Virus record (IMG/VR): IMGVR_UViG_3300022874_000036
Coordinates: 1 to 27,271 of that record
Reading direction: 5' to 3' (one strand)
Length of the DNA stretch: 27,271 nt
Source: a virus
Notes under the pieces: model-generated
What the model saw: only the letters and a program-made list of their open reading frames with translations
What the model was told of the DNA's origin: nothing
The model's database searches: none
Made by a program: the position numbers and the translations under genes
Shown here: positions 7,662 to 27,271 of the stretch, piece after piece
Layout of the letters: the number at the start of each line of letters is the position of its first letter
Position numbering within the stretch: position 1 is the stretch's first letter

Positions 7662-7705
7662 GAAATCCGTAGGATTTCAGTTAACTATAATTTCAAGGAA
7701 ATTAT
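7662..7705. repeat. Paired mini-hairpin element: hairpin-AGTTAACT-hairpin
   Basis: Hairpin 7662-7678 has arms GAAATCC/GGATTTC and loop GTA. The perfectly palindromic linker AGTTAACT spans 7679-7686. Hairpin 7687-7705 has arms ATAATTTC/GAAATTAT and loop AAG, and is followed by GTGATG. The SD for the next gene (AAGGAA, 7695-7700) lies in the loop and right arm of the second hairpin. This is the only copy of the family seen in the left arm. Confidence 0.75.
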
Positions 7706-7708
7706 GTG

Positions 7709-7933
7709 ATGCAGAAGCTGGCTTTACCAATCAGGGGGATCTCAAAGGGTCTGACTGTAGCCGTGACTCCACAAGAGTATACCACGAATATTAGTAATGT
7801 CCGCCCTAGGGATGTTTTGGAACAGCGGATCAGGTTGGGACAAAGACCAGGATTAGCTAAGTGGTCTAGTGTACAAGTTGGTGCTGCTTCCAATCCGGTA
7901 GTAGCTATTTGCTCAGTTTCTTCAATTAGTTAG
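7709..7933 (+). CDS. Short N-terminal-like piece of a tail protein ('GQRPG' motif)
   Basis: This is a 74-residue product from ATG 7709 (AAGGAA at 7695-7700, 8 nt spacing); GTG 7706 is the alternative. The core, NVRPRDVLEQRIRLGQRPGL, is the hallmark of the first ~60 residues of a group of large podovirus tail proteins that continue into a propeller-like domain. Here the frame stops at TAG 7931, and the propeller-like domain appears as a separate gene at 9196-10791, after an inserted fibre gene. It therefore looks like the detached N-terminal part of that protein. It may still act as a separate subunit, because its own start and SD are intact. The SD lies inside a mini-hairpin, so translation may be regulated. 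I rely on remembered family patterns, so certainty is moderate. Confidence 0.55.
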   Translation: MQKLALPIRGISKGLTVAVTPQEYTTNISNVRPRDVLEQRIRLGQRPGLAKWSSVQVGAASNPVVAICSVSSIS

Positions 7934-7938
7934 AGATT

Positions 7939-9183
7939 ATGGCTGATCTAAGAGAAAACTATACTGGTGATCCGGGCGAAGAGTCTGGGCAGTTCTTCTA
8001 TAATGATATCTTTTCAGAGGTTCACACCTATGCCCAAACCTTCTTAACCACTGCTGGTGGTAACATAGAGTATGTGGACATGCTCTTTAGGTCTTCCGTC
8101 GGCACTACCTCTGATACTGTTGTCAACATGTCCATACAGGCTTTGGATGGCGGCGGTAAGCCAGATGGTACTCCCTTAGAAACAGCTTCAATTACTATTC
8201 CAAAAACTCAGACTACTTTCACATATCAAACTTTGACTTTAGCCGCTCCTCTGACTGTTACGGACGCCACTAGCTATGCCATTGTTTTAGAAGCCGGCAC
8301 TGCTGATGCAGATCATTTAGGACAAGTTGCTGCTAACGATACTGGAACAGCTTATTCAGATGGAGCAAAGTTTTATACAACAGATGGTGGAGCTTGGACA
8401 GAAACAGGTTCCTCAGATGATTTGGTATTCAAAAATTATGGTGCTGCTCATGCCAAAGCAGACAACCCAACTCCTACGGATGCAGATACCGAAGTTGACT
8501 TCTCTGGTGGTGTGCTTGACTGGGATGGGACAGGTGATACTTACACTGTCCACGTTGCAAATTCGGGTGGAGGATTCATAGCCTCGGACATAGTAGTGAC
8601 CGATACCGCTGCTACAACCTACACTTTAACTACTGCCCAGAAGGCTAAGTTTGCTGGATTGACTGATGTGCTGTACTGGCGAGTAAACTCTACCAAGTCT
8701 GGATCAACTCTTACTGGAGATACTTGGACCTTTGACCCTAGACCAGGGAAGGCTTCTGTTCCTACTCCGACTGATGCAGATACCGGTATAGCCACTAGCA
8801 CTGACTTCTCCTGGACCTTAGGAACTAATGGTACTACTAATGAATTGCTCATTGATGGGGCATCATACTTAGACAGTAGTGATGTCACTTATTCTATGAC
8901 CTCTGATCTGTTTATTTATGAGGCTGCCGTCGTTTGGCGGGTAGATACCACTAATGAGTATGGTACTACCACTGGGGATACATGGACCTTTGATGCTCAG
9001 GCATTTGGTATGCTTAGAGTTTCTTACACCTTGATCCCTGGTGGAAGTGGTGATGGGCCTTATGACGCAACTCCTGGAACCGAAGGAACAGATTATTGGG
9101 TCACTGGTGACAACAACGTTATAACTGTTAAACGATTAGTAGTAGCCGCAAATAACAAAATTCACTATGAAAGCTTCGGATAG
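7939..9183 (+). CDS. Tail fibre-like protein with beta-sandwich and two Ig/FN3-like repeats
   Basis: This is a 414-residue protein. ATG 7939 is 5 bp after the previous stop and its SD is weak (GAGA), so it may depend on re-initiation. Residues ~1-165 form a beta-sandwich of the 'AQTF...GKPDGTPL...YAIVLEA' type found in adhesins and phage fibres. Two repeats follow at ~175-270 and ~271-360. Each opens PTPTDADT and closes with a WRV strand and TGDTWTFD, as in Ig/FN3-like fibre modules. The C-terminal ~50 residues form another small beta domain. Its TAG is followed in the same frame by CAG GAG ACT GTT and then the TTG start of the next gene. An attachment role is inferred. Confidence 0.6.
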   Translation: MADLRENYTGDPGEESGQFFYNDIFSEVHTYAQTFLTTAGGNIEYVDMLFRSSVGTTSDTVVNMSIQALDGGGKPDGTPLETASITIPKTQTTFTYQTLTLAAPLTVTDATSYAIVLEAGTADADHLGQVAANDTGTAYSDGAKFYTTDGGAWTETGSSDDLVFKNYGAAHAKADNPTPTDADTEVDFSGGVLDWDGTGDTYTVHVANSGGGFIASDIVVTDTAATTYTLTTAQKAKFAGLTDVLYWRVNSTKSGSTLTGDTWTFDPRPGKASVPTPTDADTGIATSTDFSWTLGTNGTTNELLIDGASYLDSSDVTYSMTSDLFIYEAAVVWRVDTTNEYGTTTGDTWTFDAQAFGMLRVSYTLIPGGSGDGPYDATPGTEGTDYWVTGDNNVITVKRLVVAANNKIHYESFG

Positions 9184-9195
9184 CAGGAGACTGTT

Positions 9196-10791
9196 TTGGC
9201 AATTGCAATTACTAATATAACCAATGTTCTCCGGTTAGTTGCCTGTGGAAATGATATAGCTTATTATGAGGATATTAACGTGGCTGCTGGAACTATGACC
9301 GCCTTAGCTGCAAGTGATGCTGACATTGATACGAGTGATAATCTCAATATGTTTGAGGGGTTCCAAAAAGTCTATGTAGTGAACGGAGCCAATCTTAAGG
9401 TCATTGATTTTAAGAATGCTGAGCTTACTCACGGGGCTTTGGGTACCCAACATGCTGTTGGTGATATTCTAACTCAGGCTGTCACAGCGGCTGTAATGGT
9501 GGTGGACTTTACTAACACTGCCAAGACTAAGACCTATGGGTATGTGACTTCTGGAACATTTAACTCTACTAACGCTGTAACAGGTTCTGGTTCTGGATCT
9601 GGCTTTACTCCCACTGGTACTGATACTGGGGTTCCTGGAGGTAATGATCCTCACTGGTATGATTGGACTGTCTATCCTGGTGGAGCTAGTGGAGCTATGA
9701 TCGCCAAGGCTTATCTTGGTTGCTTGTATAGAGGCCGATGTGTGATTAGTGGCAATCCCAATTATCCATATCAGTGGTATATGAGTAAGGTGGGTGATCC
9801 ATACAACTGGGTATATGGAGCTAATAATGCTCTATCTGCTATTGCCGGAAAGGATGGCAAGGCAGGAGAACTAGGCGATGTTATTAGAGCCTTGATTCCT
9901 TATCAGGATGAGTATCTCTTGTTTGGGTGTGCTAATTCCATCTGGGCCTTGAGAGGAGATCCCGCTGATGGAGGCTCACTTACGCCCTTGAATGTATCTA
10001 TAGGTGTTTTTGGAAACCAATCCTGGTGTTTTGATGCTGGGATGAATCTGTACTTTGCAAGCAAGAGTGGAATACATAAGATCCCTTATGGGTTTGGCCC
10101 AATTCAGAATCTCTCTCAGTTTGTTCTTCCCAACCTAGTAGAGGATACCAATATTGATCCTGCTATCCATAGAATTACAATGGGATATGATAGAGAACGG
10201 GAGGGAATCCTAATCTCTATTACCACAATTGATACTGGAGCCAATGTTTGTTACTGGTATGATATAGGAACTGAGGGATTCTATCCTGAGTCCTATCCCG
10301 CTACTTGTGGTGCTTACTCAATGTTCTTTCACTCTGCTAATGATGACGCATATCGAAAGCTCCTTATTGGGTGTACAGATGGATACATTAGAAAGTTTGA
10401 TGGAACTGCTAAAGACGATGTGACTACCAATGGGACTACTGCTATCTCATCTTACATGACGCTACCTATTATTACAGTTGAGGAAGACGATACTGATCTC
10501 AAGATAAATTCAGTGTTGGTGACTACTGCTGGGGGAGCAGCTGGTGGTGCGGCGTCTGATACAGACTCTGTTGATGTTGAAATTTACACAGCAGACGGAG
10601 CAGAGGAAGTAGTAGAAGCTATAGAGGATGGGGATACACCACTACACAATACTACAATTACTGGGCCTGGAAAATCTAATAGACTCAGGAATAGAACCAG
10701 GGGCAAAGCAATCGGAATTAGACTAGCAAATGATACGGCCACTTCTACTTGGGCTATAGAGCGGGTGTCCGCGAACGTAAAGGAAGTATAG
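9196..10791 (+). CDS. Propeller-like podovirus tail protein (nozzle/hub or stabilisation type)
   Basis: This is a 531-residue protein. TTG 9196 is used, with AGGAGA at 9185-9190 five bases before it; no ATG fits. Motifs GRCVISGNPNYPYQWYMSK, VGDPYNWVYG, ALIPYQDEYLLFGCANSIWA, LRGDPADGG and GVFGNQSWCFDAGMNLYFAS repeat the W/G/D pattern of a beta-propeller. The order matches structural proteins of podovirus tails related to P22 gp10-type 'stabilisation' or nozzle proteins. The N-terminus starts directly in the first blades and lacks the 'GQRPG' segment, which lies upstream at 7709-7933. The protein has no signal peptide. It probably forms or caps the short tail tube. Homology is judged by pattern, so the exact ring is uncertain. 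Confidence 0.6.
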   Translation: MAIAITNITNVLRLVACGNDIAYYEDINVAAGTMTALAASDADIDTSDNLNMFEGFQKVYVVNGANLKVIDFKNAELTHGALGTQHAVGDILTQAVTAAVMVVDFTNTAKTKTYGYVTSGTFNSTNAVTGSGSGSGFTPTGTDTGVPGGNDPHWYDWTVYPGGASGAMIAKAYLGCLYRGRCVISGNPNYPYQWYMSKVGDPYNWVYGANNALSAIAGKDGKAGELGDVIRALIPYQDEYLLFGCANSIWALRGDPADGGSLTPLNVSIGVFGNQSWCFDAGMNLYFASKSGIHKIPYGFGPIQNLSQFVLPNLVEDTNIDPAIHRITMGYDREREGILISITTIDTGANVCYWYDIGTEGFYPESYPATCGAYSMFFHSANDDAYRKLLIGCTDGYIRKFDGTAKDDVTTNGTTAISSYMTLPIITVEEDDTDLKINSVLVTTAGGAAGGAASDTDSVDVEIYTADGAEEVVEAIEDGDTPLHNTTITGPGKSNRLRNRTRGKAIGIRLANDTATSTWAIERVSANVKEV

Positions 10792-10793
10792 TT

Positions 10794-11462
10794 ATGATAC
10801 AGTCAACAGGTTCAGGATATTCCAAGACAGCAAAGAAGAAACCTACTTCTTCAGGAGGAGCTTGGGGTGGGGGTGGAGCTATGAGCCCTGAAGACCAAGC
10901 CAATCAGGCCAACTTTGACAGAGAACAAGAGATCAGGAACCTACTAGATGAAGTCATTGGAACCTATTCTCCTGCAGGCTCTGGCGGTGGTGGTTCGTTT
11001 GGTGCTGGTACTGAGGCCATGATTGAGCGTCAGAAAACCAAGGCTATCGGACAGGGAACTCAGAGTTTGATTTCTTCTGGTCTGTATGGATCTACCATGA
11101 CAGCTGGATTGGGAACCGCGTTTGAAGAAGACGTGGCAATGCCCACTAGGTTAAAGCTAGAGGACTTGAGAACCCAAAAATATTCAGATGCTTTGGGACA
11201 GAAGGCGGGCTTTATTGAAGGCATTGAAGATCAATCTCCCTCTTATGAGACAATGGCTAAACTTACTTCCCAGGCTAACTCTGCACCAGAATCTTCTCTT
11301 AGTGATTGGTTGGCACAGAATTTTGGAAGCACTCCTAATCCTACTAAGTCCGCTTCCTCACAAGCTAGTGCTCAGTCCGCTAAGGCTGAGACCTCCCGCT
11401 GGCAGAAACAACAGACTGGTAATCTGGCTAAATTGAAATCCCAATATGGATACTCAGTATAA
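10794..11462 (+). CDS. Putative internal virion / ejection-associated protein
   Basis: This is a 222-residue protein. ATG 10794 (with AGGAAG at 10781) is preferred over an in-frame ATG at 10749 inside the previous gene; it starts 2 bp after the previous stop. It has a Gly/Ser-rich N-terminus (SSGGAWGGGGAMSPEDQ), a second glycine run (GSGGGGSFGAG), then a helical region with IGQGTQSLISSGLYGSTMTA and a conserved-looking block FEEDVAMPTRLKLEDLRTQK. Similar proteins sit between tail and fibre genes in environmental podoviruses and resemble small ejection proteins in size and composition. It overlaps the next gene by one base (TAATG). No enzyme motif is seen. Confidence 0.5.
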   Translation: MIQSTGSGYSKTAKKKPTSSGGAWGGGGAMSPEDQANQANFDREQEIRNLLDEVIGTYSPAGSGGGGSFGAGTEAMIERQKTKAIGQGTQSLISSGLYGSTMTAGLGTAFEEDVAMPTRLKLEDLRTQKYSDALGQKAGFIEGIEDQSPSYETMAKLTSQANSAPESSLSDWLAQNFGSTPNPTKSASSQASAQSAKAETSRWQKQQTGNLAKLKSQYGYSV

Positions 11463-13036
11463 TGTCAGTGGGCTCAAGAGTACCATATATTGCTAATGTC
11501 ATTCCTGAAGACTGGAACTCGGTACTGAGGTTCAGCCGGGATGTACAGAAGTATATGTCTACCCTGGCTAATTCTGAGCAGACTATCTACACCACAGAGC
11601 TATTCATCACAGGCAGCACTGCTTCTAGACTCTTGGCTACTGATGCTTCTCAGGAAGTAGTTAGTACCGATCTAGCATCCTGGGTCACAGGAACAGCCAA
11701 TCAGGTTATAGTTACAGATGATACAGATGGAACGATAACACTCTCAACCCCACAGGATATTAACACTACGTCTAGTCCAACCTGGGTAAATAACACACTT
11801 ACTGGATATCTTACAGCGGTTGGAAACATAACAAGTACAGCAGGAGAAATTCGTTCTGGTGTCCTAGATACTTATCGTGGCTTCTTTAGAGCGTATGGCC
11901 ATGCTACTGGGAATGCCTGGGGTGGGACACTTTATCTTGAGCCTTCTGCTGACTATGATACCGACATTGGTGCGTATATTCTATCGGCCTATGAGGATGA
12001 CTTCGTTATTCAGAGTGGTGGGGGAACAAGCTGGTTCAGGATTGATGGGCCAACGGGTGGCATTACAATTGCCGGGACTCTTGAGTCAGTTGGTGTTGCT
12101 ACTCTAGCTGATGCTTCTTTGTTGAAGACTAGTGCCGCACCTACTACTGATGCAATGATTGCCAACAAGAAGTATGTAGATGACTCTACTGCTGCTCCTG
12201 CTGCCCACGTACATGACGGAGACACCCTACAGTTAGATGGAATCAATAGTGATGGTGGAGCCTTTTCCTTTGATACAACTGGAACCGTAACCTTTAATGA
12301 GTCAATAACAATGTCCGCTGGCAAGGACTTAACAATTCCTGGTCACATTATCTTCAATACAAACAACTCTTACATTGGCTTTGCCAACCCAAGGATTACC
12401 TTCAATGATACAGATGACCGGCTTGAGCTTACTGGTGGTTTAACTGTTTCTGAGGGTGGTGTCTTCCAAATAGCTGGGGATGATCTATCGGTAACAATCA
12501 ATGCTCATGCCTATTCCGCATTACAGGTAGTAAATAATAGGTCAGCCCAGAACACTGACTCTGCTTTTGACTTCTACAAGTCACGGGGAACACCGGCTCT
12601 CCCAACAACAATCTTAGATGGCGACTGGCTCACTAAGTGGAGATTCTACAGCCATAATGGCACAGCGTTCGCACAGACCGGCGGATTCATATATGATACG
12701 TATGATATCGGTAATAATTACGGAAAGTTCAAGTTCTACTACTATGCGGGGAATACGTTTTTCCATTTTGAAACAGGGGCCGAGTACACCAGAATAGGTG
12801 ATATCACAAATGCTGATTATATCAACATAAGTACCGCTAACGGCGACTTGACTTTTGTTGGGGATTCTGGGTTCTACCCCAGACGTGTTACTCAAAGTGC
12901 AGAGCCAGCTAATGGTACTGGCGTTACACAGATCGATGTAGGGGAGCTTATAATCTGGAGAGATCCAGATGACAATAAAACATACCTATTGTATCAGGAT
13001 ACTGACGAAGGTGTCAGAAAATCGGAGATGACCTAA
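11462..13036 (+). CDS. Tail fibre protein
   Basis: This is a 524-residue protein. The N-terminal ~50 residues (RVPYIANVIPEDWNSVLRFS) probably attach to the virion. Residues ~80-120 carry the widespread phage-fibre motif ANQVIVTDDTDGTITLSTPQ followed by a short repeat of the SSPTW/TLTG type. The 'NKKYVDDS' segment near residue 240 is the common fibre motif (cf. TKAYVD). Long Asp/Gly/Thr-rich beta stretches follow. The last ~50 residues end in LIIWRDPDDNKTYLLYQDTD, a C-terminal knob-like pattern. The gene begins inside the stop of the previous one and has a weak SD, so coupling is likely. It probably contributes to host recognition. Confidence 0.65.
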   Translation: MSVGSRVPYIANVIPEDWNSVLRFSRDVQKYMSTLANSEQTIYTTELFITGSTASRLLATDASQEVVSTDLASWVTGTANQVIVTDDTDGTITLSTPQDINTTSSPTWVNNTLTGYLTAVGNITSTAGEIRSGVLDTYRGFFRAYGHATGNAWGGTLYLEPSADYDTDIGAYILSAYEDDFVIQSGGGTSWFRIDGPTGGITIAGTLESVGVATLADASLLKTSAAPTTDAMIANKKYVDDSTAAPAAHVHDGDTLQLDGINSDGGAFSFDTTGTVTFNESITMSAGKDLTIPGHIIFNTNNSYIGFANPRITFNDTDDRLELTGGLTVSEGGVFQIAGDDLSVTINAHAYSALQVVNNRSAQNTDSAFDFYKSRGTPALPTTILDGDWLTKWRFYSHNGTAFAQTGGFIYDTYDIGNNYGKFKFYYYAGNTFFHFETGAEYTRIGDITNADYINISTANGDLTFVGDSGFYPRRVTQSAEPANGTGVTQIDVGELIIWRDPDDNKTYLLYQDTDEGVRKSEMT

Positions 13037-13038
13037 TC

Positions 13039-13938
13039 ATGGGAATAGAATTCAAACATGGAGCAGCAGAAGTTAAAGCACTGGCAGCACAAGCTGGGAA
13101 AGCTCAGGCTGCTAACGTTGCATTGAATCAACGATTCACAAAAGATATGGCAATGATGGACTACCAGTTCAAGCTTGCTGGCGAGCAGAGAGCTAGAGCT
13201 TGGGATCTTGAGAAGATGGAGATCGCTTCTCGGAATGATTTCCAGCAGGAGGAAACTGCTAGGGTTCAGAAACAACAGCAGTGGAGCCTTATCAAGAAAC
13301 AGATTGAGGATTCAGATATTCTAAGTGAGCCACAGAAAGAACAGGCCCTACATGAGAACTTTATGAAGCTTCATGGCGGTGTGGTTCCCAGGCAGAAAAG
13401 TGTTGAAGAGCAAATGATGGAAGCTGCATTCAATGGCCCACAAGGTGGTGGAAAGACTGGAGGACCAACACAAGGGTCGCAGGATACTGCTCAGTCTAGT
13501 CCAGATCCCGGTCGTTCCCTCGGCGTTGTTGAAACCCCAGAAGGTATGCAAGTTATGTCCCCAGATGGTGGGATGAAGCCAATCAATCAAAGCGGTATGG
13601 TCAATGTAATTAACCCTAGTGGTGAGAGAGTTAAGATTAAGGGCTCACAGTTACAAGAGGCTATCGCAGAAGGATACCAGTTTATTGGTGTGGCAGCTTC
13701 TTCTATGGGACAGACCACAAAGAGTCCCACTACGACTGCTCCTCGACAGAAGGATTCCTCATTTGATTTTGAGGAAGATGTACTTGCTGGAATTTTTGGT
13801 GCGGACACCACTATTAAGTCCAGAGACGTAACAACAGAGGACATCTCCAGGATGGGTTGGAACCCAAGATCCAAAACTATAAAACCTAAAAATAAGAAGC
13901 CCTCTGCTCTTCGTAAATTACTTCCTTGGAGTAAATAA
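13039..13938 (+). CDS. Internal virion protein, coiled-coil
   Basis: This is a 299-residue protein. ATG 13039 lies 2 bp after the previous stop, with GGAG 11 bases upstream. Residues ~5-115 are strongly helical and charged with many Gln, Glu and Lys (AGEQRARAWDLEKMEIASRN), likely a long coiled coil. A Gly/Pro/Ser-rich hinge follows, then a small domain with VNVINPSGERVKIKGSQLQE and AIAEGYQFIG, a pattern that recurs in phage internal proteins. The C-terminus is basic (PKNKKPSALRKLLPWSK). Placement directly before the 1028-residue internal protein fits the trio of ejection proteins in podoviruses. The role in DNA delivery is inferred. Confidence 0.5.
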   Translation: MGIEFKHGAAEVKALAAQAGKAQAANVALNQRFTKDMAMMDYQFKLAGEQRARAWDLEKMEIASRNDFQQEETARVQKQQQWSLIKKQIEDSDILSEPQKEQALHENFMKLHGGVVPRQKSVEEQMMEAAFNGPQGGGKTGGPTQGSQDTAQSSPDPGRSLGVVETPEGMQVMSPDGGMKPINQSGMVNVINPSGERVKIKGSQLQEAIAEGYQFIGVAASSMGQTTKSPTTTAPRQKDSSFDFEEDVLAGIFGADTTIKSRDVTTEDISRMGWNPRSKTIKPKNKKPSALRKLLPWSK

Positions 13939-13940
13939 TT

Positions 13941-16900
13941 GTGGCAATAGAAGAATTCCCAAGTACATTTGAAGAAGAAGTAGTTCCTTATTTTCCTGAG
14001 CACAATGACTCGACCCTGGAAATATTTGGTAAAGGTCTGGTTAAAAGTTTTCTGAACATAGGTGCAGGGGCTGTTGGTACTGTTGAAGAACTGGCAGAAC
14101 TTACTCCTTGGGTTGATGAAGAGAACTACTTAACTGGAATCCGTGAGAATATTAGGGCAGAGGAAGAGAACTGGGCTACTACTCCAGAAGGTGCAGTCGA
14201 ATGGACAGCAAATGTTGTTGCTCAAGCTCTGCCTTATATGGGAGCGGCATTAACTGGACATGCAGCGGCTGGTGCCCTTGGTTCTATGGCTATTTCTTTC
14301 TCAGTAGAAGGCCAGGAAGCATATGACAATGCTAAGAAACGTGGTGCTACAGAGACAGAAGCGAATACTAGCAGGGCTGTAGTTGGTGGAATCAATGCTG
14401 TCATAGAGGGTGTCCAGATGGGCAGGCTGCTTAAAGTAGCCAACAAGGGAAAGCACTCACTAACTCAATTTCGTAAACTTGCTGCCCAAAAAGCTTGGGG
14501 AAAGATGTGGAAAGAAGGGACAGATTTTGGAAAGGACTTGCTGCTTAATTCAGTAGAGGAAGCGGCAGAAGAATTTATACAACAGGGGGTGTCCTTAACT
14601 GTACCTTATTATGTCGAGAGTACCCTAAAGGGAGGCTCAGAATACTTTGACGATAAAGAGATTTTCTCATATCTGTGGGCCAACAAAGAACAGCTAGGAG
14701 CAGCGGCTTTGGGTGGGGCTGTGGTATCTCCGTTCCTTGGAGTGGCTAGGGCTGCCATCCCGGCTGCTGCTAATCCTGGTGTTGCACAGATTCAAGCCTT
14801 AAAGGACAGAGTACAGGACCAAGGCTGGAGTAATGAGAAGAAGGCAGCTTACATAAGAGACATTGATAAGTTTGCTGAGAAGGTCTATGGTGGAATACCT
14901 GATGTAGTGCAGACTCTGAACCCTGAGAATGTAGAGGCCCAGGAAGCACACGCCACCTTGATTGATCGGATGGATGATGTCCTAGATGGAGTAGAGAATA
15001 ATCGTGCGGCCTATGAAGCAGAGATCAAGGAGACCAGGGCTGAGAGATTTGGGGATGTAGAGAACACTGTCAAAGGGATTATGAATGATCCCAATATAGA
15101 TGACAGAGCTAAGATGGCTATGGTTCGTAAGGTCATGCAGGGTAAGATGGGCTCCTTGTTTGACTCTCTTATAGAACAGGGGTGGACTCAGGAAGAGTAT
15201 GACCACTTTATCCACACAACTATGGTAGTCCATCAGGACTCTGCTACTGATTTGCTTAAGTCTTTCTCGGCTTTCCAAAAACTCTTTGAAGATGGGATGA
15301 TGCCTGAGGTCAATGAACTCAAGTCTCTTGAGCCTATCCTTGGTAGAGCCTTTGTTAAGAAGGCCACCGAGACTGTTACTAAGATGAAGTCCAAGCCTAA
15401 GACATTTGGCCAGAAGATTCTTAGCAATACCAAAGAGTTATTCAACTTTCCTAGAGCGGTACTGGCTTCCTTGGACTTCTCTGCTGTTGGTAGGCAGGGT
15501 GCATTGATAGCCTTTATGAAGCCTGGAGCTTGGGCTAAAGGTGTTGGTGCTGGATATAGGGCATTCTTTAGTGAGGATTATGCTGACTACATTGACTTGC
15601 AAATTAAGACACATCCTATGTATGACCAGTTAAAAAAGAATGGAGTCTTTATCTCAGAGCGTGGAAACTTGGCAGCATCCGAAGAGTACTTTGCATCTAG
15701 GTTGGCTCACAAACTTCCTGGTATCTCAGCTTCAGAGCGGGCTTATGTTACCTCACTGAATACAATGCGGGCTCATGCCTTCTTTAACATTGCAGAGAAG
15801 TGGGCTGGTACTGGGTCCATGAGCAATCTTCCTGAACTTGCTAATGTTCTAAATCACATTACTGGGCGTGGTGATTTGGGGTCTCTTAGAAAACTAGCTC
15901 CAGCTTTGAACATTATGTTCTTTGCTCCCAAGCTACAGATTGCCAGGATACAGACCTTGACTGATCTGGTTCCATTTAAGGATGGCAAACACATTGTTAG
16001 TCCTACTCAGAAGATACTAGCCGCTACCTTAGCTGAAGCCTTTGGTACTGGGGCTCTGATTCTCTGGCTATTGTCACAAAGAAAAGGCGTAGAGGTAGAA
16101 CACGATCCTCGTAGCTCGGACTTTGGTAAGGTTAGGATTGGAGACACAAGGATTGATTTCTGGGGTGGGTACTCTCAGATGATGAGGCTGGTTGCTAATC
16201 TATCTACAGGCGAGATGAAGTCTACCACTACTGGTGAGGTTTATGATCTTAAGAGAGTGGATACGGTTGCTAGATACATGCAGACCAAGCTGTCACCTGT
16301 TGCTGGAATAACTTTGGATGCTTATCGAGGTGAGGATTTCAAGGGAGACTTGCTGGAACCTAGTCTGGAAACTGGTGCCCAACAGTTCTATCAGAGATTT
16401 ACCCCCCTGTTCATACAGGATACCAGTGATGCCCTGTACTACCAGGGATTGACCAAAGAAACAATGGCTACATCTGCTCTAGCCTTGCATGGTATTGGGG
16501 CTATGACTTACCCTGTTAGTGAGGCTGGTCAAGCTGCACAACTTAAGAACAAGTATGCCTCTGAGGTATTCAAGGGTTCTCGGTGGTCTGACCTTGGACC
16601 TCTCTCTCAGAAGATACTGAGACTTCACTATCCTTTGATTGGTGAGTCGGAGCGTAGATCAAGAAGTGAGAGAACTGGTAAGAAAGCTAAGGCGAGGGTA
16701 CAGAATGAGATGAGGAAGTCTGAACGTACACTCATGCGTAGCCTAGAGCCTGACGTTAAAAATGAGTTGGATAGGCTGTTGGTTCCTGTAGGTGGACTAG
16801 GACGGAGGCTGTCTGAGGATTGGTACTTGAATGACCAGAAGTACAAACAGTATCAGTTTGAAGTCTCAGCTGCATTGAACAAGGTGCTACCTAGATTTAC

Positions 16901-17745: not shown

Positions 17746-17748
17746 AGT

Positions 17749-17967: not shown

Positions 17968-18012
17968 TGTAATTTCCTTAAAATTACATTAACTTAGTTT
18001 GTTTCACAAACT
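17968..18012. repeat. Paired mini-hairpins upstream of the MGMFDS gene
   Basis: Hairpin 17968-17988 has arms TGTAATTT/AAATTACA and a 5-nt loop; on the - strand its loop TAAGG is the SD of the gene starting at 17967. A 7-nt linker TTAACTT (17989-17995) joins it to hairpin 17996-18012 with arms AGTTTGT/ACAAACT and loop TTC. The palindrome GAGATCTC follows at 18013-18020. The first hairpin closely resembles the one at 7687-7705 in the opposite arm. Confidence 0.7.
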
Positions 18013-18036
18013 GAGATCTCTATCCCTCCAACCCAC

Positions 18037-18108
18037 CAGACCTTCGGTCTGAGTTAACTTATTCACTAGACAAGCCCTGCTTGTCAATATTAGCAATCTC
18101 TGATTGCT
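18037..18108. repeat. Three-hairpin element with AGTTAACT and AATATT linkers
   Basis: Hairpin 18037-18051 (CAGACC/GGTCTG, loop TTC) is followed directly by AGTTAACT. After CACTA comes hairpin 18069-18085 (GACAAGC/GCTTGTC, loop CCT), linker AATATT (18086-18091), and hairpin 18092-18108 (AGCAATC/GATTGCT, loop TCT), then TACTTTG. The last two hairpins lie inside the 3' end of the 18059-18394 reading frame. Confidence 0.75.
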
Positions 18109-18394
18109 TACTTTGTGAATCGTGCCAGTGTTTATCAAGAATCTGCTTTGCTTTTGCCATGCGTTCACCATTCCAATGATATACATTTTCTGGCAATAAT
18201 CTATCACTGGCACTAACACACTTTACCACGCCCAGAATTCCTTTTCTAATCATACAGACACACATTGGAACAACAATAGCATAAGCCAGCAAAGTTAGAT
18301 AGTATCTCCCATAAGCAATCAGTACAATCCACAAAGCTCCATCACCGGCTTCTCTAGCCAAGTCGCACAACATCTTAAACTGTTCCATGTTCAT
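18059..18394 (-). CDS. Small membrane protein with two hydrophobic segments
   Basis: This 111-residue protein starts at ATG 18392-18394, with GAGGAGG seven bases upstream, and overlaps the preceding gene by 4 bp. It has hydrophobic segments at ~20-32 (GALWIVLIAYGRY) and ~33-58 (YLTLLAYAIVVPMCVCMI), followed by a soluble charged tail. The last ~20 residues (SKQSEIANIDKQGLSSE) are encoded by two mini-hairpins of the dispersed family, as if the C-terminus had been extended by an inserted element. I do not recognise a family. Confidence 0.5.
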   Translation of the reverse strand: MNMEQFKMLCDLAREAGDGALWIVLIAYGRYYLTLLAYAIVVPMCVCMIRKGILGVVKCVSASDRLLPENVYHWNGERMAKAKQILDKHWHDSQSKQSEIANIDKQGLSSE

Positions 18395-18558: not shown

Positions 18559-18560
18559 CC

Positions 18561-19304: not shown

Positions 19305-19786
19305 GGTATACCTCTTTTAATATCTGAAATTACTGATTGTGAAACTACAAAGAATTTGGCCAATCTTGTTTGTGTGACTGGACAGTTTCTACTAAATAGT
19401 TCCCTAATGGTATTTACTTTTTTATAATTGAGTTTAGATCCTCCATGTCTTTCACCACTATTATCTGTTCCGTGTTTAACCTTGTCTAGTAAATTATTTT
19501 TCCGGGTGTCCCATCGTAGATTTTCTATCCTATTATCATCCCGGATTCCATTGTTATGGCAAGACTCCTTACCTTGTGGACAAGGACTAACAAATGTTTC
19601 TAACATAATTCTATGTAGATAGGAAGTCTTTCTGTTTAATATAACCTGAACATACCCTCGTTCATACCTTGGGATCAGCCAGCCTCCTGTATTATTATTC
19701 TTTTTATCACTCCACACATTTCCATCCTCAGCAATAAAATATCCAGGATGCCTGGGAATTGGAAAGCATTCTTTTAGTTCACCCAT
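19274..19786 (-). CDS. NUMOD4/HNH homing-type endonuclease (copy 1)
   Basis: This is a 170-residue protein with start ATG 19784-19786. It has a NUMOD4-like N-terminus (FPIPRHPGYFIAEDGNVWS), an HNH_3-type nuclease core (LHRIMLETFVSPCPQGKESC, then HNNGIRDDNRIENLRW), and a C-terminal helix-turn-helix (TRLAKFFVVSQSVISDIKRG). The invariant-type His58 and His77-Asn78 are present. Such free-standing enzymes nick or cut recipient phage DNA and spread their own gene. Its last 31 bp overlap the start of the exonuclease gene in another frame, so it sits exactly at a gene boundary. It is related to the copy at 21719-22225 but clearly diverged. Confidence 0.8.
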   Translation of the reverse strand: MGELKECFPIPRHPGYFIAEDGNVWSDKKNNNTGGWLIPRYERGYVQVILNRKTSYLHRIMLETFVSPCPQGKESCHNNGIRDDNRIENLRWDTRKNNLLDKVKHGTDNSGERHGGSKLNYKKVNTIRELFSRNCPVTQTRLAKFFVVSQSVISDIKRGIPWQSDVCSRT

Positions 19787-19937: not shown

Positions 19938-19970
19938 GTTGAACCTCCTTGAATCTCTTTTTGGAATCTA

Positions 19971-19987
19971 ACAATGTTTCACATTGT
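19971..19987. repeat. Single mini-hairpin, loop TTC
   Basis: Arms ACAATGT/ACATTGT with loop TTC, preceded by CTA and followed by AATTACTGG. It begins two bases beyond the stop (19990-19992) of the gene ending there on the - strand, so it lies in the 3' untranslated gap. Confidence 0.65.
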
Positions 19988-19989
19988 AA

Positions 19990-20884: not shown

Positions 20885-21089
20885 GCCCTTCACCTCCAGG
20901 GAACTTGTTCCCAGACCTGGGGATGTATCCATCCCCACCACAGTTAATACAATCTCTCTTACCCTTGTCTAGTCCTTTTGGATTACACCGAGAACAGGGT
21001 ACCCCAAAAATTTTTAGGTAATTGTGGTCAAAAAACTTCTTGTTTACGCGACGAAATCTGTCGCCTTTGCCTGCTTGTCCATCAACCAT
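20865..21089 (-). CDS. Small 'GKGDRFR' protein with DnaJ-like zinc motif
   Basis: This 74-residue product starts at ATG 21087-21089, with GGGAG upstream; the frame is open 9 codons further up but overlaps the previous gene. The opening MVDGQAGKGDRFRRVNKKFF is characteristic of small phage proteins of unknown function. It has C..C (CSRC) and C..CxGxG (CINCGGDGY), a DnaJ-type zinc-binding arrangement. A palindrome (GGGAACTTGTTCCC, 20899-20912) lies within the 3' coding part. It overlaps its neighbours at both ends. Confidence 0.6.
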   Translation of the reverse strand: MVDGQAGKGDRFRRVNKKFFDHNYLKIFGVPCSRCNPKGLDKGKRDCINCGGDGYIPRSGNKFPGGEGHVEKRV

Positions 21090-21540
21090 TTGAACTCCCA
21101 AGAGTAACCAAGGCATTGCTCTTGCTCTTAATTATACTATCCTTCTTACGATTGTCAATGACGGCACCAAGGCCCAGGATACCAGCCAGCGTAAATCCAA
21201 GGCCAACAGGATCTACTGCACCACCTTGAGCGATAGCCCAACCAGCTTCTAGCAAAGCCTTACGCATAGCTTCCTGCTTATCCAGGTCTTCAACAGCAGA
21301 CGATACCTTAACTACATACATCTGAACTTCGGCGTCCAACTCTGCTCTAGTTACAGGTTCGTCAGTGAATGGGCTCTCTGTCATTACATCACAGCCTGAC
21401 CATGCCAACAGAAGTACACACACTATAGCACCAGCTACTAGGGTTTGGTTATGACGCAGGTATGTCTTGATACGTGATGCAATAGGCATCACGTTAACTG
21501 GAAGCTGTGCTTCCGTGATATTTTCAATTACCTTATTCAT
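21082..21540 (-). CDS. Membrane protein with two hydrophobic segments
   Basis: This is a 152-residue protein. ATG 21538-21540 sits inside the previous stop (TAATG), with AGAGGA 9 bases upstream. An N-terminal hydrophobic helix (TLVAGAIVCVLLLAWSGC, residues ~33-50) ends in a Cys that could be a weak lipoprotein signal but lacks a canonical lipobox. A helical coiled-coil region follows, and a second Gly-rich hydrophobic segment VDPVGLGFTLAGILGLGAVI lies near residue 120. Residues 7-15 (ITEAQLPVN) are encoded by a copy of the AGTTAACT-type hairpin element (21493-21519). Similar two-helix phage proteins are unassigned. It may be an inner-membrane or envelope-spanning protein. Confidence 0.5.
   Translation of the reverse strand: MNKVIENITEAQLPVNVMPIASRIKTYLRHNQTLVAGAIVCVLLLAWSGCDVMTESPFTDEPVTRAELDAEVQMYVVKVSSAVEDLDKQEAMRKALLEAGWAIAQGGAVDPVGLGFTLAGILGLGAVIDNRKKDSIIKSKSNALVTLGSSNG
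21493..21519. repeat. GTTAACT-hairpin-GTGAT element inside a reading frame
   Basis: GTTAACT (21493-21499), hairpin 21500-21514 (GGAAGC/GCTTCC, loop TGT) and GTGAT (21515-21519). It matches the intergenic copy at 25129-25156 over more than 25 bases with one loop change, though that copy lies 3.6 kb away in a non-coding gap. Confidence 0.75.
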
Positions 21541-21731
21541 TATACAAGTCCTCTCATATATGTGTGGAATCGTGGAGCAATCCACTTCTTGTTGGAAACA
21601 ATCTTCAACTCAACATCTTTCCATTCTTCTTCATCAGCATCAATACACAGTCCATACTTGCTACACAGTACTAGGTAATCTTCTACAAACTCTCTGCGAT
21701 TTGCTAATTCTCGTTTACTTAGCTCGTCCAT
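21540..21731 (-). CDS. Small acidic protein after the HNH gene, unknown
   Basis: This 63-residue product starts at ATG 21729-21731, with AAGGAA seven bases upstream; the frame runs 11 codons further up into the HNH gene, overlapping it by 13 bp. It is predicted helical and acidic (CIDADEEEWKDVELKIVSNK) with a basic end (FHTYMRGLV). The N-terminus MDELSKRELANRRE resembles the N-terminus of the upstream HNH product (MDERELAKREA), which may hint at where the HNH gene entered. The function is unknown. Confidence 0.5.
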   Translation of the reverse strand: MDELSKRELANRREFVEDYLVLCSKYGLCIDADEEEWKDVELKIVSNKKWIAPRFHTYMRGLV

Positions 21732-22225
21732 GCAATATTCCTTACTATTCGACCTATATGACATTGAAGAACTCTAAAACATTTTGCCAACTTTTGTTGC
21801 GTAATTTTTGGATTTTTATACAACTCCCTAATTTGAAATACTTGATATCTTGTTAGCTTTCTATTTGGATTGCCCTCCTTTTCTCTGCTGTATTCTGTTC
21901 CATGTATTTGTTTGTCCCTATTATTTTCCAACCGAGTTCCCCACCTTAAGTTACACAATCGGTTGTCTGTTCTAATACCATTGTTATGACAACATTCCGT
22001 ACCCTCTGGACAAGGCCCAGCAAAGGTCTCTAGAACAAGACGGTGTACTTTCTTAGAATGCTGTTCTCTATTTTGTACTAGTGTAATCTGCTTATAGCCC
22101 CCACTATTTGTTCCGGGATTTAACCATCGGCCCAGATACAAGCTCCAAATTCTGCCATCTTTGGTAATCTCATAATTGGGAAAACCAGAGATAGCTTCTC
22201 GCTTTGCCAACTCTCGTTCATCCAC
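21719..22225 (-). CDS. NUMOD4/HNH homing-type endonuclease (copy 2)
   Basis: This is a 168-residue protein. The start is GTG (22223-22225) with AAGGAG seven bases upstream. It has a NUMOD4-like start (ISGFPNYEITKDGRIWS), an HNH_3 core (HRLVLETFAGPCPEGTECCH, then NNGIRTDNRLCNLRW, with His61 and His80), and a C-terminal helix-turn-helix (QQKLAKCFRVLQCHIGRIVR). It is a diverged paralogue of the gene at 19274-19786, with the same domain order and close matches in the core. It spreads or protects its own locus by site-specific cleavage, as established for this class. Its 3' end overlaps the next gene by 13 bp, a pattern shared with copy 1. Confidence 0.8.
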   Translation of the reverse strand: MDERELAKREAISGFPNYEITKDGRIWSLYLGRWLNPGTNSGGYKQITLVQNREQHSKKVHRLVLETFAGPCPEGTECCHNNGIRTDNRLCNLRWGTRLENNRDKQIHGTEYSREKEGNPNRKLTRYQVFQIRELYKNPKITQQKLAKCFRVLQCHIGRIVRNIAWTS

Positions 22226-22236
22226 AGCATTACTCC

Positions 22237-22320: not shown

Positions 22321-22322
22321 AT

Positions 22323-22643: not shown

Positions 22644-22646
22644 TGG

Positions 22647-22663
22647 AATTCCTTTCAGGAATT
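22647..22663. repeat. Mini-hairpin enclosing a Shine-Dalgarno
   Basis: Arms AATTCCT/AGGAATT with loop TTC (GAA on the transcribed strand). On the - strand the right arm AAGGAA is the SD of the gene starting at 22643, five bases before ATG. Two other copies (7687-7705, 17968-17988) have the same arrangement. Confidence 0.7.
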
Positions 22664-22735: not shown

Positions 22736-22740
22736 TCCGT

Positions 22741-22789
22741 GCTCTAACGAATCTGTTAGAGCGAGTTTGGACAAACATTTTGTTTGTCC
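22741..22789. repeat. Two adjacent hairpins with 6-nt spacer
   Basis: Hairpin 22741-22762 has arms GCTCTAAC/GTTAGAGC and a 6-nt loop. The 6-nt spacer GAGTTT follows. Hairpin 22769-22789 has arms GGACAAACA/TGTTTGTCC and a TTT loop. The spacing and triloop match the other paired elements. These lie between the gene at 22810-23007 and the small downstream genes. Confidence 0.65.
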
Positions 22790-22809
22790 TTCTTTCTGTA
22801 TTGGCTCCA

Positions 22810-23007
22810 TTAAGAAACACCGTCGGAAGGAGTAAAGAGTTTGTGGTCTGATATTGATCCTCCTTCCCAGTAATTACTGTCGAATCCACATCCCCAACAA
22901 GCTCGATACTCCATTTGTTTTCCTGAGCGGTCATAATCTAATCGCAATTGGCCACGCTCAAACAATTCTCCACAATTCTTGCATCTAAAACTAAATTTAC
23001 TTTTCAT
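22810..23007 (-). CDS. Small two-CxxC zinc-ribbon protein
   Basis: This 65-residue protein starts at ATG 23005-23007, in an ATGA overlap with the HNH gene and with AGGAGG upstream. C9xxC12 and C37xxC40 form a classic zinc ribbon. Between them the sequence is basic (GQLRLDYDRSGKQ). Such small phage zinc ribbons are usually unassigned; several appear in this arm. The enclosed frame is short but has good SD and clear motif support. It probably binds a nucleic acid or protein, by inference. Confidence 0.6.
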   Translation of the reverse strand: MKSKFSFRCKNCGELFERGQLRLDYDRSGKQMEYRACWGCGFDSNYWEGGSISDHKLFTPSDGVS

Positions 23008-23402
23008 TTCAATAGCTCCTCCTTTATTTGAGTTAGTCTGTCTCTCCAGTTTGTATCGTGGATAGTAGCTTCAATCAACATGTCTGCCCAGTTGTCTCCC
23101 CTACTTCGTAACATTTCACGCATAAAATGTAACTGGTTCTTGTGTGCTGACATTGGACTGTTGACATGACAGTTGTGACATAGGCACGCTCCATTAATTT
23201 TATTCCACCTTACTCCGTAGTGCTTACATCTGTGTATATGGTGACTTTCAAGGCTAGTGGTGCTTCCACAGATTTCACACTTCCAGCCCGCGTTGTCTTT
23301 TACTTTCTTAGACCAGAGTTTATCAAGACAGCTGTTACCATAGCCCCTAAGTCTTTTTGGAACGCTAACTCTTTTCTTTCTACGCCGTCGTCTCTTAGCC
23401 AT
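23004..23402 (-). CDS. HNH / NinG-like nuclease
   Basis: This 132-residue product starts at ATG 23400-23402 inside the previous TAA (TAATG); the frame is open 7 codons further up but there is no SD. It has a very basic N-terminus (MAKRRRRRKKRVSVPKRL), then WKCEICGSTTSLESHHIHR and CLCHNCH: C42xxC45, His54-His55 and C75xxC78-H79. These give the zinc-bound HNH (beta-beta-alpha metal) nuclease. The arrangement 'LDKLWSKKV..AGWKCE.CG...SHH' recalls NinG (Rap)-type recombination nucleases of phages. It probably nicks or cleaves branched DNA, though a general HNH role is equally compatible. Confidence 0.65.
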   Translation of the reverse strand: MAKRRRRRKKRVSVPKRLRGYGNSCLDKLWSKKVKDNAGWKCEICGSTTSLESHHIHRCKHYGVRWNKINGACLCHNCHVNSPMSAHKNQLHFMREMLRSRGDNWADMLIEATIHDTNWRDRLTQIKEELLK

Positions 23403-23668
23403 TAGACACACCCACCACAACATCCATGAGGAATTTCTCTGTTTACTTCTATCTCAGCTTGTTCTTTCAAATCTTCTGGAAAATCATCTGGCCACTCGCA
23501 AATTGACCATTCTCCTTGTGTGACATGCTCAGTCCAATCCTCATCAAACCATACGCTGCCTCCAGAGGACAAACAATAGTCAGGAAATAACCAATCTTTC
23601 CCATCTATCATTACAATTAGTTTTCCTGAACATAAATTTGGATAACCCCCATCATATTTAATCAACAT
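23402..23668 (-). CDS. Small acidic Cys-rich-tailed protein, unknown
   Basis: This 88-residue protein starts at ATG 23666-23668 with AGGAGGAA-type SD. It is acidic, aromatic and likely beta/alpha (SSGGSVWFDEDWTEHVTQGE). The C-terminus CCGGC adds a possible metal site. It overlaps the upstream gene by 11 bp and the HNH gene by one base. I do not recognise a family. Confidence 0.5.
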   Translation of the reverse strand: MLIKYDGGYPNLCSGKLIVMIDGKDWLFPDYCLSSGGSVWFDEDWTEHVTQGEWSICEWPDDFPEDLKEQAEIEVNREIPHGCCGGCV

Positions 23669-24764: not shown

Positions 24765-24782
24765 CAGTACAACCTACCTTCC

Positions 24783-25064
24783 TTATTCTGCATACTTGCC
24801 GACGTAGCAGTACTTATTGTATTGTTCTGGGTGTATCACTCCATCCGAACATAGTGCGTCGGTCCAATTGTTAAACTCCTCGTCGATCATAACTTGGTCG
24901 TCCCTATTCTTGTGAAGCCATTCTTCATGTTCCTCATCAAATCTTGTAGACAATTCCTCTTCACTGGACACCAGCCCGAACCAATCAGACTCATAAGAGG
25001 TTATCTTCAGATACTCGGCATAGGCTTCCACCATATCCAACAATTCTACATTATTCCATATCAC
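24783..25064 (-). CDS. Small acidic protein, unknown
   Basis: This 93-residue product starts at GTG 25062-25064, with AGGAG exactly six bases upstream. It is very acidic with many aromatic residues (FDEEHEEWLHKNRDDQVMID, then NNWTDALCSDGVIH), predicted helical and with no metal site. It is the first gene after the helicase, behind the largest hairpin cluster (25077-25209), so its expression may be tuned by those hairpins. I do not recognise a family; DNA mimicry is one guess based on charge. Confidence 0.5.
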   Translation of the reverse strand: MIWNNVELLDMVEAYAEYLKITSYESDWFGLVSSEEELSTRFDEEHEEWLHKNRDDQVMIDEEFNNWTDALCSDGVIHPEQYNKYCYVGKYAE

Positions 25065-25076
25065 AAAATTCTCCTA

Positions 25077-25209
25077 GGGAATCAAAGATTCCCAACATTG
25101 ACAATCGAAGATTGTCTACTAGAATTTTAGTTAACTGGAAGCTTTGCTTCCGTGATTAGTATAGTCCTCTAGGGAAGTGAAACTTCCCAATATTGTCAGC
25201 AAAGCTGAC
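25077..25209. repeat. Largest hairpin cluster: five mini-hairpins with AACATT, AGTTAACT and AATATT linkers
   Basis: CCTA precedes hairpin 25077-25093 (GGGAATC/GATTCCC, loop AAA). AACATT links it to 25100-25116 (GACAATC/GATTGTC, loop GAA), then TACTAG. AGTTAACT at 25129-25136 leads to 25137-25151 (GGAAGC/GCTTCC, loop TTT), then GTGAT. CTCTA precedes 25172-25188 (GGGAAGT/ACTTCCC, loop GAA). AATATT links it to 25195-25209 (GTCAGC/GCTGAC, loop AAA), then TACC. The cluster fills the 166-bp gap between the helicase stop and the next start; nothing else recognisable lies there. Confidence 0.8.
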
Positions 25210-25230
25210 TACCTGGTTTATTTTGGAACT

Positions 25231-26139: not shown

Positions 26140-26154
26140 GGCCTTACCTCCCAA

Positions 26155-26178
26155 GGGAGAAGAATCCTTTCTTCTCCC
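26155..26178. repeat. Ten-bp stem hairpin before the helicase start
   Basis: Arms GGGAGAAGAA/TTCTTCTCCC with loop TCCT. On the - strand the loop AGGA resembles an SD, but the working SD (GGGAGGT) lies downstream of the hairpin. It has no U-tract. It sits between the SSB-like gene and the helicase. The stem is longer and the loop larger than in the triloop family, so membership is uncertain. Confidence 0.6.
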
Positions 26179-26194
26179 GCCAACCTAGATTTAA

Positions 26195-26458
26195 TTAAAA
26201 TGGGCACTCATCCTTCGGCTTAGCAGTTCCCTGGTTATTCTTATCCATATAATGATCCATCAACATCTTCTGGGTACCAATCATAATATCCTTAAGGTCT
26301 GTCACCGTAAGGAACGGGCTTTCATCAAAAGTTTTGGTCTCCTCATTAAACTTCTTCTTCTTCAAACTAAAGGAGAACGTGGTCTGCTCCTTATAAGTTC
26401 CCTGCCACTTCGCGAATTCTACCATGCCCACCTTGAACTGAGATACAGGACCTGCCAT
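26195..26458 (-). CDS. Putative single-stranded DNA-binding-like protein
   Basis: This 87-residue protein is called from ATG 26456-26458. The body is strand-rich and basic (VEFAKWQGTYKEQTTFSFSL, then KKKKFNEETKTF) and the C-terminus is TAKPKDECPF, with an acidic-aromatic tip recalling the DDDIPF tail by which SSBs recruit partners. It is encoded immediately before the helicase and near the primase, a normal place for an SSB. The fold is not confirmed as an OB domain and the protein is short. It may instead be a small transcription or annealing factor. The assignment is suggestive only. Confidence 0.45.
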   Translation of the reverse strand: MAGPVSQFKVGMVEFAKWQGTYKEQTTFSFSLKKKKFNEETKTFDESPFLTVTDLKDIMIGTQKMLMDHYMDKNNQGTAKPKDECPF

Positions 26459-26487
26459 AATACATTCCTTAAATGTGTGTCAATATT

Positions 26488-27021
26488 TTAATTGTCAAAA
26501 ACATTTCCGATTACTTTGTATGTACAGACTGTTCTGCCATTGTAAAAGTCAATGACCTTTGGCTTAACACCTCCTCCTGTTTGACATTTGTAACAATCAT
26601 AAGACACAAATTTACCTCCAATTTTTAGAACAATTCTCTTTCCTCCACAATCATTAGTGACAATATCTCCATGCTTCGGTTGAATATCCTTCGCTTTCTG
26701 GGCTATGCGTCGTTCCTCCGTATCCTCCTTCTTTAGCTGTTCCAGGTTATCATTAAGAGTTTTAATGTTTGCTTCACATTGCTTGATCTTGTCATTGCTC
26801 ATCAGTTTTTTCTCCTTTTTAATCCACTGGTTAAGAAATTGTTGTGCCCGTTCTCTGGTCTTCCAGTAACCTTCACTGAACCTGTGATAATCATATACCG
26901 CACAAGCATTCCGAGAAAACGTTCCATCCTTTTGTAAATACTTTCCTTCATTGTAATTAACAATGGTATATTCATTTGGTATTGGGTCATGTCTCCTTGG
27001 TTGAATAACTTCCCAGCTCAT
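26488..27021 (-). CDS. Two-part protein, unknown, with strong internal start
   Basis: This is a 177-residue product from ATG 27019-27021 (AAAGG upstream). Residues 1-70 resemble a small phage protein with alternating aromatics (NEYTIVNYNEGKYLQKDGTF, then GYWKTRERAQQFLNQWIKK). Residues ~74-100 form a coiled-coil (NIKTLNDNLEQLKKED), and the rest is a basic strand-rich domain with CGGKRIVLKIGGKFVSYDCY and CQTGGGV. An AAGGAG SD followed by in-frame ATG 26800-26802 (MSNDKIKQ) could give a separate C-terminal polypeptide. No function is recognised. Confidence 0.55.
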   Translation of the reverse strand: MSWEVIQPRRHDPIPNEYTIVNYNEGKYLQKDGTFSRNACAVYDYHRFSEGYWKTRERAQQFLNQWIKKEKKLMSNDKIKQCEANIKTLNDNLEQLKKEDTEERRIAQKAKDIQPKHGDIVTNDCGGKRIVLKIGGKFVSYDCYKCQTGGGVKPKVIDFYNGRTVCTYKVIGNVFDN

Positions 27022-27024
27022 CCT

Positions 27025-27271
27025 TTAATTCTCCTTAATAAGTTTAATACAGGCTTTTACATTATCAGCTGTAGGGAATCTCTGGAACTTTGCATAGACT
27101 TGTGATGCTGTCCACTTTGTTTCCTGTTCCACTATCTTTAATGCTTCTTGCTGTGGAACGGTTGGAGTTGGGCAGGTGAGGTCTGAAACCACGCCAGAGA
27201 AGCCTTGCTTCTCAGTAACTTGGGAGCTTTGCTCCCTGGCTGTCTTAGGTTTTGGGAACGCAAGCTCTTCT
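27025..27271 (-). CDS. Partial gene, C-terminal 81 residues, containing a hairpin pair
   Basis: The frame is open to the right edge; the gene starts outside. The visible part begins EELAFPKPKTAREQSSQVTE and has a low-complexity, Ser/Gln/Pro-rich linker followed by an ordered helical end (QQEALKIVEQETKWTASQVY, then KACIKLIKEN). The segment REQSSQVTEKQGFSG is encoded by two mini-hairpins (27197-27236), looking like an in-frame insertion in a tolerant linker. It ends in the SD region of the next gene. The function is unknown. Confidence 0.5.
   Translation of the reverse strand, partial: EELAFPKPKTAREQSSQVTEKQGFSGVVSDLTCPTPTVPQQEALKIVEQETKWTASQVYAKFQRFPTADNVKACIKLIKEN
27197..27236. repeat. Paired mini-hairpins inside a reading frame
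   Basis: Hairpin 27197-27213 (GAGAAGC/GCTTCTC, loop CTT), linker AGTAACTT (one base shorter than AGTTAACT plus T), and hairpin 27222-27236 (GGGAGC/GCTCCC, loop TTT). The pair is fully within the partial gene at 27025-27271 and keeps its frame open. Confidence 0.75.

Follow-up and report, generated by a model that had tools for sequence, protein, structure and literature searches.

Dispersed double-hairpin elements in an uncultured phage resemble mobile palindromes of the REP kind

Introduction

Bacterial chromosomes and organelle DNA are known to harbor mobile palindromic mini-elements. Here, we examine miniature hairpins dispersed through a 27,271-nt record of an uncultured virus, IMGVR_UViG_3300022874_000036—the whole of which is referred to below as the window—and show that most of them are not independent units but halves of double-hairpin elements with fixed linkers. 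An earlier note on this DNA had treated about 20 of the hairpins as a single family; instead, they fall into two element types, with a few hairpins belonging to neither.

The closest described systems are the GTAG-type repetitive extragenic palindromes (GTAG-REPs) and the REPINs, together with their TnpA-REP transposases, or REP-associated tyrosine transposases (RAYTs). GTAG-REPs occur as dimers and in clusters, show complementary stem changes, supply TAG stop codons, have in-frame copies, and are also located inside other palindromes (PMC3733652). The Stenotrophomonas TnpA-REP cuts single-stranded REPs composed of an 8-bp perfect stem, a 3-nt loop, and a GTAG foot, with many stem substitutions, but not mismatches, being tolerated (PMC8266576). 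Furthermore, it has been argued that the unit of mobility is the REP doublet (PMC3116915). A different use of hairpins is found in phage N4, whose virion RNA polymerase reads promoter hairpins in which the non-conserved stem bases are free to vary if pairing is kept, and in which a C-G closing pair and a G and an A at the loop ends are needed for extrusion, the hairpins being stable in DNA (PMC4496689).

On the evidence presented below, we consider it probable (roughly 0.68) that non-autonomous mobile DNA elements of the REP/REPIN kind have multiplied within the phage lineage, most of the hairpins being one half of such an element. A search of the literature on phage hairpin and palindromic repeats gave nothing relevant, and REP-kind elements in a phage genome were not found reported.

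Hairpin Excess and Paired Organization

Every hairpin listed earlier was found in place, with the kinds of stem and loop ascribed to it, and the expectation of a count far above shuffled controls was borne out. In comparison with dinucleotide shuffles, the window contains 27 triloop stems of at least 6 bp versus 8.0 (maximum 16), and 14 of at least 7 bp versus 2.0 (maximum 5); from 17,200 to the window end, 10 stems of at least 7 bp were counted versus 0.8 (maximum 4), with the excess lying mostly right of 17,200. Three further records contain the window virus, namely G001 (35 kb), G004 (upstream), and G002 (with a capsid protein at 94% versus the window virus), so that ~46 kb (46.4 kb) of it was open to scanning; viral records are fragments, and the upstream and early parts come from partial ones. 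Within these overlapping records, a scan for two hairpins 4–10 nt apart returned 14 sites, versus 0–2 in 20 shuffles. Pairing with fixed linkers was new relative to the earlier list, as were a pair at 170–209, a copy at 3171–3213 of L001 (the early part of G001), and a copy at 375–411 of L034 (in G004).

Type A units are 38–45 nt long and have the design TA-[hairpin]-AAYATT-[hairpin]-TA(C), and type B units are about 48–52 nt long and have the design (T)CAC-[hairpin]-AGTTAACT-[hairpin]-GTG(A); about 6 copies of type A and 5–7 of type B occur in 46 kb. When folded as DNA, the element strands greatly exceed shuffled sequences in stability (z about −3 to −7), and none has a match in Rfam.

In the window, type A unit a (25075..25119, +; 45 nt) reads TA-GGGAATC aaa GATTCCC-AACATT-GACAATC gaa GATTGTC-TAC, with a DNA-fold z of −5.4 and a covariance-model match of E 6.5e-15, itself being in the training set. 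Unit c (25170..25212, +) reads TA-GGGAAGT gaa ACTTCCC-AATATT-GTCAGC aaa GCTGAC-TAC, and unit d (18067..18111, +; 45 nt), at the 3′ end of the open reading frame (ORF) 18059–18394 (−), reads TA-GACAAGC cct GCTTGTC-AATATT-AGCAATC tct GATTGCT-TAC; both are recovered by the covariance model and by DNA folding. Unit e (168..212, +), TA-GGGAACA gaa TGTTCCC-AAACTT-GACAATG gaa CATTGTC-TAA, has the linker AAACTT and lies in frame near the C-terminus of ORF 28–225. The L001 copy is on the opposite strand, and the G004 copy has the linker AATACTT. Type A units in the window genome mostly share one orientation, though nearby genes run both ways. Of 11 type A units, 9 have GTAG before one hairpin, its last G usually being paired in the stem; type B units have no GTAG. 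A promoter reading, with TTGACA at the AACATT/GACA junction, was dropped: the motif varies between copies and is antisense in the early region.

Of type B, the unit at 25063..25155 (+) reads ATCAC-[ AAAATTCT cct AGAATTTT ]-AGTTAACT-[GGAAGC ttt GCTTCC]-GTGAT, its first hairpin loop being interrupted by type A unit a, and that at 18032..18122 (+) reads CAC-[CAGACC ttc GGTCTG]-AGTTAACT-[ATTCAC ttt GTGAAT]-CGTG, its second hairpin being interrupted by unit d. Unit i (7658..7709, +), which also folds as DNA, lies between ORFs 7401–7655 and 7706–7933 and reads TCAC-[GAAATCC gta GGATTTC]-AGTTAACT-[ ATAATTTC aag GAAATTAT ]-GTGA; its second hairpin holds a Shine-Dalgarno-like AAGGA, and the same sequence is present in G002. 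Unit j (21472..21519, +), [ ACGTGATGC aatag GCATCACGT ]-TAACT-[GGAAGC tgt GCTTCC]-GTGAT, likewise folds as DNA and lies in frame near the N-terminus of ORF 21082–21585 (−); a 27-bp block of it matches the second half of the type B unit near 25130–25157 at 96%.

Nesting of Type A Units in Type B Hairpins

The interruptions of the two type B units can be undone exactly. Excising the 45 nt from TA to TAC at 25075–25119 joins AAAATTCTCC to TAGAATTTT and yields an 8-bp stem with the loop CCT, and excising the 45 nt at 18067–18111 joins ATTCAC to TTTGTGAAT and yields a 6-bp stem with the loop TTT. At random junctions, spanning stems of at least 6 bp arise in 0.99% of cases and those of at least 8 bp in 0.2%; excision of unit c or e restores no spanning stem. 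Each restored hairpin is joined by AGTTAACT to another hairpin, and CAC/GTG flank the pair. Thus, on two occasions the loop of a type B hairpin appears to have received a type A unit.

Stem Pairing and Its Origin

In a comparison of nine type A units, taken from two viruses, pairing was found in 98% of cells, with 26 two-sided and 0 one-sided changes (slid controls, 0–4). The earlier observation that stems vary while pairing is kept therefore holds among these paralogous copies. Its use as proof of selection on the folded form does not, since the same pattern also arises by templated palindrome correction or when copies descend from different palindromic parents. Moreover, no G·U pair occurs among 119 type A cells, and genome-wide, perfect triloop stems are enriched, those with a single G-U occurring at the chance level. 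Since G-U steps would be expected from selection on RNA and none is seen, pairing would be a property of the DNA or of a palindrome-making copying process; the type A stem pattern speaks for DNA, or for templated palindrome correction, rather than for RNA. In the loops, a C-G pair closes 21 of 30 triloops, 29 of the 30 are purine-N-purine on one strand, and 14 are GAA or GTA.

Elements Inside Genes

Units d, e, and j, the type B-like unit o (described below), and the L001 copy lie within open frames, several of these elements leaving the ORF unbroken. Counting one flanking TA, three type A units in putative ORFs measure 42, 42, and 45 nt—each length being divisible by three, in a small sample—and the remaining ones 38, 38, 39, 40, and 42 nt. 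Unit e is missing from the homologues in six relatives (G008, G005, L004, L021, L005, and G007), whose proteins end a few residues past the same cysteine motif at which the window protein continues in frame through the element. In the relative G012, the exonuclease ends at a TAG stop codon provided by a type A copy.

Distribution Among Relatives

Relatives were found via the capsid, helicase, and portal-like proteins. In their records, matches to the type A covariance model at E ≤ 1e-3, apart from weak ones, are confined to the window species, G008, and G012; one match in the window species is itself weak (26 bits, L034 3513–3574), and weak matches in G037 and G072 were rejected on reading as shared coding sequence. 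G008, with a capsid protein 87% identical, carries a tandem array of three units, whose stems differ and whose linkers alternate between TAGTA and AATGTT. G012, which is syntenic and mostly 30–70% identical in amino acids, carries one 42-nt unit twice, 31 kb apart, with one loop mismatch. No type A element was found in the other relatives examined. Element positions are not shared between the lineages compared, and the sites are empty in the relatives compared. G012 also contains the hairpin GCACTC-NNN-GAGTGC twice in inverted orientation (L055 16194–16208 and 16512–16526), once beside a type A copy.

Wider searches added no further family. A pattern scan of viral contigs gave 12 stretches, among which the paired double hairpin was present only in the window species and G008, the rest being chance-like, and a paired-hairpin scan at a looser threshold over ~0.92 Mb of relatives and more distant helicase loci gave scattered, chance-like pairs. 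BLAST searches with the G008 array against phages and plasmids, and with window positions 25050–25230 against phages, gave no match. Among GTDB genomes, one exact pattern gave 0 matches and a second gave 5, all without pairing; the covariance model gave 0 in 396 genomes of one phylum, under stricter filters without a positive control.

Comparison with Known Systems and Alternative Explanations

The phage elements most resemble GTAG-REPs and REPINs, above all group 3 (Stenotrophomonas REP-Sm), in having perfect short palindromes with 3-nt loops beside GTAG (PMC3733652, PMC8266576, PMC3116915). They also share doublets, tandem clusters, complementary stem changes, in-frame copies in ORFs, TAG stops, and seating in other palindromes. 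GTAG-REPs are repeated perfect or near-perfect palindromes with stems of 5–13 bp, as are the phage elements, and the doublets and clusters of GTAG-REPs have counterparts in the paired scan and the G008 array. Unlike REPs and REPINs, they occur in a phage, with no RAYT gene seen and few copies, and their hairpins are only 6–8 nt apart across a near-palindromic AT linker. Mitochondrial double-hairpin elements of fungi and sponges are likewise dispersed units of adjacent hairpins, patchy among close relatives, with intergenic and in-frame copies and no known function (PMC2800124); they differ in sequence, whereas the phage units reside in phage DNA and appear to be nested in hairpin loops, and no kinship is claimed. 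Rickettsia palindromic elements are similarly in-frame palindromic repeats in protein genes (PMC10969869), but differ in being CGTC-tagged or ~150 bp in length and in encoding a conserved peptide; the phage units are 38–45 nt (A) or 48–52 nt (B), lack CGTC ends, and add about 14–16 varying codons.

Of the explanations offered in the earlier note, a mobile palindromic mini-element is the best supported, while its case for fold selection from covariation, its single family, and its view that no single protein could read stems this variable did not stand; on the last point, both TnpA-REP (PMC8266576) and the N4 virion RNA polymerase (PMC4496689) tolerate stem changes. Several observations weigh against a REP-like mobile origin. 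No Y1 transposase (PF01797) was found in 13 phage records, the control being positive in 5 of 14 genomes, and no other transposase was recognized in the phages. In addition, no cellular genome with the element emerged from searches with exact patterns or within one phylum, and no element source was found. Complete copies in the window species are all different, contrary to a recent burst, and no excision or transposition event was observed. The type A GTAG overlaps the stem by one base, its last G, usually paired here, being unpaired in REPs, and GTAG is absent from two type A units as well as from type B. REPs and REPINs number tens to thousands of copies, far from the count in this phage's 46 kb. 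Finally, the nestings of a and d could instead be three-way structures. Type A might accordingly be said to work like a REPIN, but is not classed as one, because of the lack of a Y1 transposase in the 13 records and the low copy number.

An alternative is that the hairpins act in RNA, as mRNA processing sites, stabilizers, translation switches, or U-tract-free terminators between early genes. Most of them are indeed located within the leftward early region, with several between genes, and a Shine-Dalgarno-like loop or arm comes just before the start codon at 26155, 17968, 7687, and 22647. However, the lack of G-U pairs and of one-sided changes, one-G-U stems being at chance, the absence of an Rfam match, the many copies inside ORFs, the positions not shared with the relatives compared, and the predominantly single orientation of type A amid genes running both ways make this explanation unlikely. 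Ordinary terminators do not fit, as noted earlier, with no T tract following the stems. The palindromes might also be passive products of short duplications and template switching (quasi-palindrome correction) during phage replication, with neither mobile unit nor function. Such a process would account for covariation without selection and for the missing G-U intermediates, and tandem duplication would explain the G008 array; it leaves unaccounted for the constant linkers AAYATT and AGTTAACT, the constant ends and lengths, the G012 copies one base different 31 kb apart, and the 45-nt units in hairpin loops, and we regard it as quite unlikely.

We give still less credence to structure-read DNA sites, such as promoters or replication sites like the hairpin promoters of the N4 virion RNA polymerase. 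N4-like phages have a virion polymerase of ~3500 amino acids, versus 1028 amino acids for the longest ORF in the window, the upstream and early parts being from partial records. N4 uses three sites in fixed context, whereas the sites here are many and movable, with copies inside ORFs and positions not conserved in relatives; what the two systems share is a largely structure-read, short-stem DNA hairpin with a 3-nt loop and a C-G closing pair, and the closing pairs and the GAA or GTA loops counted above are those that N4 hairpins need (PMC4496689). Least credible are inert relics imported once with host or mobile DNA: the patchy presence in three lineages only would agree with hitchhiking of this sort, but the copies stand singly in or between phage genes rather than in imported blocks, and their sites are empty in relatives, which makes it highly improbable.

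With regard to how REP-like elements might spread in this phage, a tentative and less secure proposal is that the hairpin doublets move as folded single-stranded DNA, with a preference for hairpin loops as targets, driven by a host RAYT-like transposase acting in trans or by a new phage activity. As no Y1 transposase gene was found in the phages, the transposing enzyme, like the single-stranded route, is postulated here. Under the REP-like mobile reading in general, the palindromes would be kept perfect by template switching, or by selection for recognition, even as their stems diverge, and some type B copies with a Shine-Dalgarno-like loop may have been co-opted. If mobility is confirmed, these would be mini-elements that spread in a phage, sit within one another's loops, and are tolerated by the genes that contain them; a compact, fast-replicating phage would offer a small test system for palindrome movement and stem perfection, and would reveal a route by which REP-like elements might pass from host to host.

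Other Hairpins and Gene Content

The type B-like unit o (27193..27240, +), GCCA-[GAGAAGC ctt GCTTCTC]-AGTAACTT-[GGGAGC ttt GCTCCC]-TGGC, lies inside a 150-amino-acid ORF (−), in a linker dissimilar in the G005 homologue. Another type B-like pair (17968..18012, +) reads [ TGTAATTT cctta AAATTACA ]-TTAACTT-[AGTTTGT ttc ACAAACT], its first loop showing AAGG just before the ATG at 17967 (−). Pair k (22741..22789, +), [ GCTCTAAC gaatct GTTAGAGC ]-GAGTTT-[ GGACAAACA ttt TGTTTGTCC ], has a linker unlike those of A or B and a DNA-fold z of −6.8. A further pair at 20899–20937 (GGGAACTTGTTCCC; TGGGGATG tatc CATCCCCA), with hairpins 5 nt apart, lies in the N-terminal part of a MazG-like gene frame.

Among the single hairpins, that at 26155..26178 (−), with a 10-bp stem, presents AGGA in its loop directly before a TTG taken as the helicase start, and is possibly a translation-initiation hairpin, not an element; that at 22647..22663 (−), with a 7-bp stem, has a Shine-Dalgarno-like AGGAA arm 5′ of the ATG at 22643 (−), and both may be translation features. 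The 7-bp hairpin at 19971..19987 (+), ACAATGT ttc ACATTGT, is intergenic and a possible lone remnant. Shine-Dalgarno-like motifs of the AAGG/AGGA/GGAG kind occur in hairpin loops at 26155–26178, 17968–17988, and 7687–7705 of the window and at L034 3520–3571; those of the window are directly before a start codon, and such hairpins are possibly a separate translation-initiation device.

Rightward genes for head and tail occupy window positions 1–17,200, and leftward genes (exonuclease, helicase, primase-like, and HNH endonucleases) make up the rest; upstream, G004 encodes a family A DNA polymerase. Four free-standing HNH endonuclease genes (window 19274–19786, 21719–22225, and 23004–23423; L034 4494–5099), three of them mutually related, are themselves mobile and possibly relevant here. 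L001 encodes an RtcB-type RNA ligase at 51–1190 (Pfam E 9e-107) and, at 1328–2482 and 4096–5223, paralogous proteins with 36% identity and cysteine-rich C-terminal parts, the first having no Pfam match. In the 53.7 kb relative G007, the capsid region stands at both ends with small differences (L027 918–2670 and L029 11961–13734), as if the record were permuted or assembled from two strains. Within window ORF 5623–7389, a 278-bp stretch at 6345–6735 is repeated in overlapping register with 68% identity, which suggests internal repeats in the encoded protein.

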